DNA from: Lachnospiraceae bacterium
GTDB lineage: Bacteria; Bacillota; Clostridia; Lachnospirales; Lachnospiraceae
Length of the DNA stretch: 43,821 nt
Assembly: GCA_029098105.1 (NCBI GenBank)
Contig: JAQXNR010000034.1
Coordinates: 1-43,821 of the forward strand
Direction of reading: 5' to 3'
Shown here: piece by piece, positions 38,937 through 42,541 of the stretch
Layout of the letters: each line of letters opens with the position of its first letter
How positions within the stretch are numbered: the first letter of the stretch is position 1
The notes under the pieces: model-generated
Told to the model about the DNA's origin: nothing
The model's database searches: none
Seen by the model: the letters and a program-made list of their open reading frames with translations, nothing else
Translations under genes and position numbers: made by a program

Positions 38937-40007
38937 TTAATTCAAGTGTAATACATGGTATCCCGCTGCCTTCAGCAGCCGATTCATAATTGCCTGTCCC
39001 AGTTGTTCCCGCTCAAAACTTTCACAATAAATCATCTCTATGCCCCGGGTATCCATCTCCCGTAAGATGGCAAACAAGTTATGGGCAACCGACTCTTCAT
39101 CCTGCCTGCTACCAATCGTCACAACGAGGGGCGCTTTATAGCAGTCCCTGCTCTCCTTCGTAGCAATCACTGCCACTTTCTTGTTCTGTCCCATGGCTTC
39201 TTCCACCAATTGGTTAATCCGGGTGCTGACCTGCTCCATACTCCCGCCTTCTACCAGTATAAGTTGTCCCTTAGGCGCATAGTGCTTATATTTCATTCCG
39301 GGCGCTTTCGCCACCAGATGCTCCTGAACATGTTCCTCCAAAATCGCCGGATCCACTTCTATACGTCCCAGAATTCCGGCAATCTGTTCCTTCGTAATAT
39401 ACCCGGGGCGCAGAATAACAGGAGTCTTCCCTGACACATCTATAATTGTGGACTCCAGCCCGATGGCAACCGGTCCACCGTCCAGAATCATATCAATTCT
39501 TCCATCCAAATCCTCTATTACATGTTCGGCCCGGGTTGGACTTGGGCGTCCGGAAAGATTCGCACTTGGGGCCGCCACATAGACTCCAGATTCCCGTATT
39601 AACCGCAGAGCAACCGGATGGCTTGGAAACCGGACAGCCACTGTGTCAAGTCCTCCCGTTGTTTCTTTGGGAACCATCTCCTGCTTTTCAAAAATCAACG
39701 TCATCGGTCCCGGCCAAAACGCCTTCATCAGTTTATGGGCATCTTCTGACACATTCTTTGCCAGTTTGTCCACCGCATCGAAATCTCCAATATGCACAAT
39801 AAGAGGATTGTCACTAGGCCGACCCTTTGCCGCATAAATATTCTGGGCAGCACAGGGCATCAGAGCATCTCCCCCCAGACCATAGACCGTCTCTGTGGGA
39901 AAAGCCACCAGACCACCTTTCTTTAATATTCGGGATGCCTCGCAAAATATTTCTGCATCTTCCGGCTTTTCCCGTTCCAAATCAATCCTTTTAATTATTG
40001 TTTCCAT
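38937..40007 (-). CDS. Threonylcarbamoyl-AMP synthase (Sua5/YwlC type)
   Basis: 356 residues. An N-terminal YrdC domain (about 10-205) with ILKKGGLVAFPTETVYGLG, the KGRPSDNPL motif and SANLSGRPSPT, and a C-terminal Sua5 domain (about 225-350), joined by the linker with SPGMKYKHYAPK-like sequence (here APGMKYKHYAPKG). It makes threonylcarbamoyl-adenylate for the universal t6A37 modification of ANN-decoding tRNAs. It is the first gene of the operon with the YwlE-like and rpiB genes (gaps 15 and 21 bases). Confidence 0.95.
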   Translation of the reverse strand: METIIKRIDLEREKPEDAEIFCEASRILKKGGLVAFPTETVYGLGGDALMPCAAQNIYAAKGRPSDNPLIVHIGDFDAVDKLAKNVSEDAHKLMKAFWPGPMTLIFEKQEMVPKETTGGLDTVAVRFPSHPVALRLIRESGVYVAAPSANLSGRPSPTRAEHVIEDLDGRIDMILDGGPVAIGLESTIIDVSGKTPVILRPGYITKEQIAGILGRIEVDPAILEEHVQEHLVAKAPGMKYKHYAPKGQLILVEGGSMEQVSTRINQLVEEAMGQNKKVAVIATKESRDCYKAPLVVTIGSRQDEESVAHNLFAILREMDTRGIEMIYCESFEREQLGQAIMNRLLKAAGYHVLHLN

Positions 40008-40147
40008 TTCTATCCATCACCATTCCATTAGGATTATATAGTTCCTGCAAACGTCCATATCATAACACAATCTCTTGATTCTTTCCACCTTTTCATTCTA
40101 AGAATTATACTTTTTTCATAAGATATACAAAAAAGCGAAAAAAATTT

Positions 40148-40882
40148 ATGAAAAAAGCAATACCCTTACTGGCACTGACCGCAATGGTGCTGACAGGCTT
40201 CACTCTGCACAACCAGCGGGACCAGATTTACCTTGCCACTTTAAAAATTCAGAAAAATCCCGCCACGGTTGTTCTTGATGCCGGTCATGGCGGTAGTGAC
40301 CCGGGCAAAATCGGAGTGAATCAAGTTCGGGAAAAGGATATCAATCTGTCAATTACTCTAAAGTGCAAAAAAATTCTGGAAAAGCAAAACATTACTGTAG
40401 TACTCACCCGTCAGGACGATTCCGGTCTGTACTCAGACTCGGATTCCAACAAAAAGACAGCAGATTTAAAGAAGAGACGGGAAATTATAGAAACAGCAAA
40501 GGCAGACCTGGCAGTCAGCATTCATCAAAACAGTTACCCGGCACCTTCCATATTTGGAGGACAGGTATTTTATTATGCTAATTCTGCCCAGGGAGAACTA
40601 CTGGCAGGCTACCTTCAAAAGTCAATTCTCTCCTGCAATCCCGCCAACACCCGCTCCATCAAAGCAAATACGGATTACTATATTTTAAAATCCGGCTCCT
40701 GCCCCGTAGTCATCTGTGAATGCGGCTTCCTCTCCAATCCGGAAGAATGTGCAAAATTAAACTCTGACGCCTATCAGGAACAGATGGCAAAAGCCATTGC
40801 CACCGGAATATTAAGTTATCTCTACCATTGCGACAATTCCACAGGGCAAGAGCCCTATACTGCCACAACACAATCAAAATAG
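40148..40882 (+). CDS. cwlD: N-acetylmuramoyl-L-alanine amidase (CwlD-like)
   Basis: 244 residues. A membrane/signal segment at about 4-20 and an Amidase_3 domain (about 38-228). Zinc ligands visible: His47 in DAGHGG, Glu62 in REKD, His126 in SIHQN; catalytic Glu191 in CECGFLSN. The SDSDSNKKTADLKKRREI segment is typical of CwlD. CwlD removes stem peptides from MurNAc during cortex synthesis, before PdaA acts; a PdaA-like gene is at 6674. The ribosome binding site is weak (purine-rich, no clear AGGAGG). Transcription ends near a hairpin at 40886-40905. Confidence 0.85.
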   Translation: MKKAIPLLALTAMVLTGFTLHNQRDQIYLATLKIQKNPATVVLDAGHGGSDPGKIGVNQVREKDINLSITLKCKKILEKQNITVVLTRQDDSGLYSDSDSNKKTADLKKRREIIETAKADLAVSIHQNSYPAPSIFGGQVFYYANSAQGELLAGYLQKSILSCNPANTRSIKANTDYYILKSGSCPVVICECGFLSNPEECAKLNSDAYQEQMAKAIATGILSYLYHCDNSTGQEPYTATTQSK

Positions 40883-41401
40883 TTTGGCGCAGATTTCTCT
40901 GCGCCACGTCAAATATTTCATGTGGGAATTATGCATACATTGTTTCTAAGGGTATTCGTATTATGGGAATCCCATGTACAGTGGGTGTATGAATTGTGAT
41001 TCCAACTAAAATCCTGTTTGGCAAACAGCCGAACACCCTTATGTATTACTGTGTGTTCAATGTATCCAATCAATTATACTTCCTCATATACAAAATAAGA
41101 ATTGTGCTTCGCATCCCTCCTTTCGTTCTCTCGCAGCCGAATCAAAAACTGTGCCGCCTGGGCAATTACTTTCCTCTGTTCGGACTGTGGTAGTTGTTAG
41201 AGAATTCCTTTGATGCTAACCGGTTAAAATTACAAATCTGTCTGTTTGTGCTAATTCTTAACGAAGGGTCATTCTGGCATCGTGTGATAATAAAACTGGA
41301 ACTCTCTCAAGCAATTCACCCCCATCCTTTTCCAATTTGAATTTACATTCGTAGTAACCGACCGCTCTCCAGCAGCCGTAAAAAGTGGCGAATCACTTTA
41401 C
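40876..41401 (-). ncRNA. Candidate large structured noncoding RNA, ~525 nt
   Basis: This stretch lies between the 3' ends of convergent cwlD and mecA, so it serves as promoter for neither. A minus-strand promoter (TAGACA, 17, TACACT) places transcription start just before a first hairpin (41399-41382). Stems, plus coordinates: 41378-41359 (8 pairs, G-U included); 41262-41223 (long hairpin); 41187-41179 with 41141-41134; 41065-41058 with 40942-40935; 41041-41030 with 40958-40947 (12 pairs, one G-U); 41028-41014; 40905-40886 with a GAAA loop. Several contain G-U pairs that would be A-C mismatches on the plus strand, which sets the direction. No convincing ORF is present. I cannot assign a known class; size recalls OLE or ROOL RNAs. 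Confidence 0.5.
40886..40905. terminator. Terminal GNRA-loop hairpin at the cwlD 3' end
   Basis: GGCGCAGA pairs perfectly with TCTGCGCC. On the plus strand the loop is TTTC; on the minus strand it is the GNRA tetraloop GAAA. Neither side has a long T-run (plus: ACGTCAAATATTT; minus: AAACTATTTTG), so it is a weak terminator for either direction and a likely last stem of the minus-strand RNA. Confidence 0.55.
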
Positions 41402-41407
41402 AATAAC

Positions 41408-41436
41408 AGTGTACTATTTAATTGTTATTCTGTCTA
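41408..41436 (-). promoter_or_regulatory. Promoter candidate for the structured RNA
   Basis: Minus-strand TAGACA (41431-41436), 17-base spacer, TACACT (41408-41413). The predicted start, near 41401, coincides with the first RNA hairpin. Sequence from here to 41643 shows nothing else that I can support. Confidence 0.5.
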
Positions 41437-41643
41437 AATCTTTGTTATTGTCATATTCACAACGACAACTTGTTATTACGACCTTTTTTGCGTTTCTTCC
41501 TTATTCATTCTGTCGAACACCGTCGAGCATTGCAGAATTTGTGTGTATAGATGGTAAGCATTTATTTTTCTTGCCTATAATTAACACAATCGTTTCCTTG
41601 TACATTCTTGAAAAATTTGATGTTAGAATTATTTTAGAAATCG

Positions 41644-41682
41644 AAAAAGCAGCGAACCGTTTTGACGGTTCCCTGCTTTTTT
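41644..41682. terminator. Bidirectional terminator after mecA
   Basis: AAAAAGCAG-C-GAACCGT pairs with ACGGTTC-C-CTGCTTTTT around TTTG, with A/T runs on both sides. It terminates mecA (stop at 41744). Confidence 0.9.
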
Positions 41683-41743
41683 CTATTTGCTCGACTGTAA
41701 TCTTCAAGTGCAAAGTTTGCATTTATAATACATATATTTTATA

Positions 41744-42541
41744 TCACGAAAGATTCGCCAACGTCTGTAATGCATTGGAGCGAATGACACAGAGAAAATG
41801 CTCTTCGTAGTAGGCCTGCATCGCATAGGAACTGCGCTCCCGCTTACCATACTCGGAGAGAATATTACAGATTCTGGTAAATGCATCCGGTTGCTGACCA
41901 CCACTGCCCAGCACCAAATAATACTCTCCACCAGTCATATTCTTATAGAGCGTATTGTCACCCCGGTAACTGTCTTTTAAATAGCGGGACACACTGCACA
42001 CGTCATCCAGATTCTGGAAGCAAAAAATAGCAGAATGGTTCTTAGGCTGTTCCTGTTTTTTACCGGAAGGCTTAGTATCTACCTTCTGTACTGACTCGTT
42101 CAGCGGAATAAATCCATCCTCTGCCGCCTTGGAAAGTCCTTCCACAGCACTGCGGACCGCATCCTTTACCACACCCAGTAAATTGGTGCTCTCCTCATCC
42201 AGTTCCATACCCTCTTCCAGTTCTTCCTCCAGATAGTCATCACTGTCTTCCTCATTGCTGGAAAAACGTGAGAAACGGGTATCTAACTCCTCTGGATCGG
42301 AAACCTTCGTCACAAACAGTATAATGCAATCCTGATTGACCGGAATCGCCTCAATCATCAAAGGAATATCCTCTGCCTCAAACCCTACCTCGTCTTCTGC
42401 CTGAAGCATCAGTTCCCGGAAAAATGCCCGCGCCTTCTCCGAACCATAGGCAAACTCTGTCAAAACAATATTTCGGCTGTCCAAATCCGCCCGGTTCAAT
42501 GTGCATTTAATTTTATTTTCACTAATTCTTTCTATTTTCAT
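41744..42541 (-). CDS. mecA: MecA-family adaptor protein
   Basis: 265 residues. The N-terminal domain (about 1-80) begins MKIERISENKIKCTL and has the YGSEKARAFFRELM segment typical of MecA, which binds substrates. A long acidic linker (about 95-120, SSNEEDSDDYLEEELEEGMEL) leads to the C-terminal domain (about 170-265, IFCFQNLDDVCSVSRYL and the YYLVL strand), which binds ClpC in Bacillus. It targets proteins to ClpCP. The gene begins with AAAGGATG upstream, 79 bases after the DUF1858 gene with no strong terminator between, so the two may be co-transcribed. Confidence 0.9.
   Translation of the reverse strand: MKIERISENKIKCTLNRADLDSRNIVLTEFAYGSEKARAFFRELMLQAEDEVGFEAEDIPLMIEAIPVNQDCIILFVTKVSDPEELDTRFSRFSSNEEDSDDYLEEELEEGMELDEESTNLLGVVKDAVRSAVEGLSKAAEDGFIPLNESVQKVDTKPSGKKQEQPKNHSAIFCFQNLDDVCSVSRYLKDSYRGDNTLYKNMTGGEYYLVLGSGGQQPDAFTRICNILSEYGKRERSSYAMQAYYEEHFLCVIRSNALQTLANLS

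Follow-up and report, generated by a model that had tools for sequence, protein, structure and literature searches.

The window analysed here, a stretch of 43,821 nt from a Lachnospiraceae assembly that is 84% complete (G000), contains a cwlD-like amidase gene and mecA in convergent orientation, with a gap of 861 nt between them (40883-41743). The features that we annotated at this locus are collected in Table 1. Two of four congeneric species, G001 and G002, share the arrangement tsaC(-) cwlD(+) gap mecA(-), and their gaps measure 858 and 868 nt, respectively. The two others, G003 and G004, have no comparable gap, and a HAD-type gene adjoins mecA there. Outside the genus, the two genes usually diverge and are separated by kilobases. 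Beyond the candidate RNA terminator, the minus strand of 38937-41401 in the window is first antisense to cwlD and further on the sense strand of tsaC; G001 and G002 share this arrangement.

Table 1. Coordinates of annotated features in the window (numbered on the forward strand)
Feature	Position	Strand	Remarks
cwlD-like amidase (Amidase_3)	40148..40882	+	best NCBIfam match spore_cwlD, 194 bits, under the 221.6 cut-off
Predicted noncoding transcript, about 520 nt	40881..41401	-	ends placed from promoter and terminator positions; no conserved ORF
Terminator-like hairpin, GAAA loop, weak T tract	40885..40906	-	adjoins cwlD stop
3' hairpin domain, 8-bp helix 41065-41058/40942-40935 around 12-bp helix 41041-41030/40958-40947	40935..41065	-	predicted fold
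5' domain closed by P1 (41398-41387 with 41320-41309, 12 bp)	41309..41398	-	fold, chance test, compensatory changes
P2 hairpin, 9 bp, invariant GGAG loop, inside P1	41358..41379	-	strong covariation
Promoter, sigma-A-type TAGACA-17-TACACT	41408..41436	-	aligned across three species
Conserved upstream block, CAAC..GTTG dyad (GTCG.A.T.A.AA...GTTGT...TAT.ACAA)	41437..41483	-	three-species alignment
Degenerate box GGTCGTA	41477..41483	-	at -83 from predicted start
Spo0A-box core, TTCGACA on minus / TGTCGAA on plus	41511..41517	-	about -117 from predicted start
Bidirectional terminator-like long hairpin	41644..41681	.	3' of mecA, T tails on both strands; separates mecA from RNA promoter
mecA	41744..42541	-	PF05389, 1.7e-68

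Our comparison covers three sequences (window, G001 and G002), all from draft assemblies, of which at least G002 is a metagenome-assembled genome; it is listed in GTDB as MAG Lapin-026 bin113, a name that suggests rabbit gut. The three gap sequences are strongly diverged and alignable in short blocks only. A BLAST search of the gap against 60 relatives returned the G001 promoter block as its single relevant match, and plasmids and phages searched with the gap gave no match. A first-pass annotation of this DNA, made without database searches, had described the gap as free of any supported protein and dense in long-range pairings, and had proposed a large, ornate structured RNA on the minus strand. 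Its first claim was borne out: six-frame translation of the gap gave short ORFs only, none of them supported, the minus-strand frames matched no relevant Pfam family, no ORF is conserved among the three gaps, and tblastn (see below) found no protein remains.

Promoter, upstream boxes and the shared module

The minus-strand promoter that the first-pass annotation had placed just before the first hairpin is present at 41436-41408, with a weak -10 element. In homologous alignment columns, G001 carries TTTACA-17-TAAAGT (TG-extended) and G002 TGGACA-17-TATAAT. The weight of this promoter lies in its shared position, because patterns of this kind readily arise by chance (three found in the window, three expected).

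The first-pass annotation had not seen two things: the sites resembling Spo0A boxes that lie upstream of 41401, and the membership of the promoter in a multicopy regulon. The locus resembles Spo0A-controlled promoters in that perfect copies of the Spo0A-box core, TGTCGAA (PMC3485338), lie upstream of a sigma-A promoter. Perfect TGTCGAA/TTCGACA cores number one, three and two per 200 nt upstream in the window, G001 and G002, respectively, where 0.03 would be expected from a background of 0.16 such 7-mers per kb, measured in 106 kb of same-genus sequence. Cores comparable to the distal one of the window are found at -118 in G002 and at -107 and -139 in G001, and at exactly -83, the place of the degenerate box, both G001 and G002 have a perfect TGTCGAA. 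Many classic Spo0A-activated promoters have their boxes closer than the -83 and -117 seen here. We found no clustered boxes in the cwlD/mecA gap of other genera. LytTR direct repeats in the promoter were also considered and dropped, their spacing not being constant.

Boxes upstream thus occur together with Spo0A_C genes in these genomes, as would be expected of a promoter of the Spo0A regulon; the set in the window genome includes a 277-aa ORF, the N-terminus of which reads as a receiver domain. We infer that Spo0A is the regulator acting through the boxes. G001 alone has seven Spo0A_C matches (on C9, C22, C37 and C58), and several of these frames are only ~125 aa long, so that a receiver domain would not fit.

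A covariance model of the promoter and P2 (R1) was run over 397 genomes of the family. It recovered its three founders and matched the promoter part only elsewhere in the genus; among the 397 genomes, R1 found no copy of the RNA outside the window species, G001 and G002. Its matches in G003 and G004 are promoters preceding protein genes, and within the genus the module precedes mazEF, DUF5688, an Rpn-like gene, a secreted-protein-like ORF and others, the Rpn-like and secreted-protein-like labels being our reading of the sequence. The promoter is therefore a multicopy module, and since it is common to protein genes, the boxes do not point to the RNA as such. As the same promoter also drives DUF5688, mazEF and others, the RNA would be part of a wider, apparently Spo0A-linked regulon. 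Four R1 matches in other genera (E 0.025-0.053) look like chance.

In G003 and G004, the multicopy promoter precedes mazEF and other genes (G003:C64:3857 and 6477, G003:C75, G003:C4, G004:C7:514 and 89583, and G004:C16; labeled L158, L163, L164, L167, L168, L172 and L176) and is near-identical at several of these loci. It has three GTCGAAT boxes in tandem, spaced by 10-11 nt, and AACAACTnnnAGTTGTT dyads. The DUF5688 genes with the module lie at G000:C48:15818-15922 (L171), G001:C50:11012 (L169) and G002:C40:6362 (L170), and they have a common leader that contains AACAUGUUCGU.AAAUAAAGC and a hairpin, GCYUUGACGAARGC, whose variation is compatible. We found no mention of DUF5688 in the literature searched.

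Fold of the predicted transcript

The comparison of the three species bears most directly on the 5' domain. In G001 and G002, an equivalent of P1 is present at RNA position 1-4, with 11 bp in the former and 7+7 bp in the latter, where a small internal loop divides the helix. The chance of such a helix is 0.0015 for the window, 0.004 for G001 and 0.043 for G002, the intervals having been picked after the fold was seen. Between the window and G001, whose P1 5' strands were aligned by MAFFT irrespective of structure, all 11 of 11 pairs persist, four of them changed on one side and two on both sides, so that P1 has been maintained through compensatory and G-U changes. The first-pass annotation had noted G-U pairs that favor the minus strand, and indeed the P1 region has a score of 25 on the minus versus 12 on the plus strand, the G-U pairs making sense on the former. 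For P2, 25 of 27 cells are paired (92.6%) versus 33-59% in control slides, and six of the nine pairs have changed on both sides across the three species. The P2 alignment was anchored on the GGAG loop, by removing ~26 nt from G001 and adding an N spacer to G002, both upstream of the hairpin, and this gives an advantage to the register of the loop but not to the pairing as such. Judged by this comparison, the promoter, P1 and P2 appear well above chance. Compensatory helix changes, the general mark of a structured RNA, were found for P1 and P2 only; in the covariation check across the three cwlD-mecA gaps, the middle and 3' helices had no support from the alignment.

The remaining helices of the first-pass annotation were recovered by folding. 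Its 12-bp helix and the enclosing 8-bp helix are both predicted with p = 0.97, and the palindromic hairpin within appears as a small ATGGG/CCCAT hairpin (p = 0.82). The 12-bp helix is the strongest of the region, yet it was equalled in 12 of 200 shuffles (p about 0.06). G001 and G002 also have a long 3' hairpin in roughly this position, but the likeness is positional only, as the sequences are not alignable; the middle domain differs among the three. The last hairpin, with its GAAA loop, corresponds to a terminator-like site on the minus strand (40906-40885). Its equivalent in G002 (2314-2287) is strong and T-tailed, and no clear terminator was found in G001.

The folding energy of 40876-41401 gives z of about -2.1 to -2.2 on the minus and about -1.0 to -1.1 on the plus strand, and that of G002 a z of -3.8. 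Without the terminator, z is -0.8 in the window, -0.1 in G001 and -2.7 in G002. Pairing beyond chance is thus modest on single-sequence evidence and is upheld by comparison for the 5' part. RNAalifold on full-length MAFFT alignments was uninformative for the whole fold, because divergence breaks the alignment. Since two of the three orthologues without the terminator fold no better than shuffles, and with a variable middle and a 3' hairpin alike in position only, the proposal that the whole 525 nt form a large ornate RNA is not, or not yet, supported. We consider it quite unlikely that the RNA is structured over its entire 520 nt and represents a new class of large, rapidly evolving RNAs, switched on by Spo0A and with a role unlike that of any known RNA in sporulating gut bacteria.

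Known RNAs and competing explanations

Searches of Rfam gave no match at the gathering threshold, and only sub-threshold noise at relaxed E (up to 5-10), in agreement with the undescribed class that had been suggested. Like ROOL, GOLLD, OLE and other large ornate RNAs, which measure some 500-600 nt, the candidate is intergenic and has no ORF; unlike them, it has no Rfam match to E 5-10, its sequence is poorly conserved, and its fold is evident in the 5' domain only. SpoX and SpoY, noncoding sRNAs of C. difficile, act on sporulation initiation through Hfq. They are tied to the Spo0A circuit (PMC10267692); the candidate RNA is longer and would lie downstream of Spo0A-type boxes. The raiA motif RNA, or ModT (RF03072), is likewise a structured noncoding RNA of Bacillota with a link to transition phase and sporulation (PMC11706538). 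ModT, however, has 215-260 nt and is conserved in >2,500 species, versus the ~520-nt RNA of three species described here, and RF03072 had no match in the window and the three genomes, the control genomes being likewise silent.

The reading that we favor, and hold to be probable, is a clade-restricted noncoding RNA gene with a covarying 5' domain and a Spo0A-box-like promoter. It draws on the conservation of boxes, promoter, P1 and P2 and on the absence of ORFs and of Rfam families. Of the ~520-nt structured minus-strand transcript originally proposed, it retains the promoter, the 5' helices and the terminator, and gives up the ornate whole.

Among the alternatives, an excludon-like leader (for the concept, see PMC7154746) fares best, and we still think it unlikely. 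Transcription would read through antisense to cwlD into tsaC (38937-40007, minus strand), silencing cwlD and raising tsaC in cis when the boxes are occupied. The order tsaC(-) cwlD(+) RNA(-) mecA(-), kept in all three species, would suit such an arrangement, as would the weak T tract of the window and the lack of a clear terminator in G001. However, such a transcript would in G002 meet a strong, T-tailed terminator ahead of cwlD, and a covarying 5' domain would be superfluous for this purpose.

A second alternative is a decayed protein gene that has kept its promoter. Given that the same promoter module precedes such genes in the genus, the coding part of a DUF5688, mazEF or Rpn-like gene could have been lost here, leaving the promoter and a non-functional transcript. 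Yet tblastn of eight proteins driven by this module found no remains in the gap (best E 0.28), no frame matches Pfam, and compensatory changes have preserved P1 and P2 across three species despite their divergence, which argues against a decaying remnant and makes this explanation very unlikely. Less likely again is that only the promoter and a stabilizing 5' leader are real and that the RNA codes for a short, fast-evolving peptide: small ORFs with Shine-Dalgarno-like sites occur in the window (16 aa at RNA position 87 and 14 aa at 292), but G001 and G002 are without any ORF bearing such a site. A CsrB-like decoy for CsrA, acting via GGA loops, is hardly credible, for although csrA is found in all three genomes and the P2 loop is GGAG, the GGA counts of 12, 6 and 9 (expected 8.5, 5.9 and 7.0) and the one conserved loop do not amount to the many GGA motifs in loops of a CsrB-like RNA.

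Proposed role of the candidate RNA

For the favored noncoding RNA gene, we suggest the following sequence of events. A Spo0A-type response regulator would bind the TGTCGAA boxes near -83 and -117 and thereby switch on the sigma-A promoter at 41436-41408. Transcription would start near 41401, yield a protein-free RNA of ~520 nt and terminate at the hairpin that adjoins the end of cwlD; we infer both ends from the positions of promoter and terminator. The first ~90 nt would form a stable domain, in which P1 closes the end and P2 displays the invariant GGAG loop. Most likely, the RNA would be a trans-acting regulator during transition phase or sporulation. P1 and P2 would guard its 5' end, and contact with an mRNA or a protein would be made by the GGAG loop or by the middle part, which is less structured.

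Few structured noncoding RNAs are known to be linked to the master regulator of sporulation, most of them in C. difficile and Bacillus. If our reading is true, Spo0A-linked structured RNA would be extended to an uncultured clade of gut Lachnospiraceae, and the candidate would connect an RNA with a promoter regulon, itself undescribed to date, to which DUF5688 and mazEF genes also belong.
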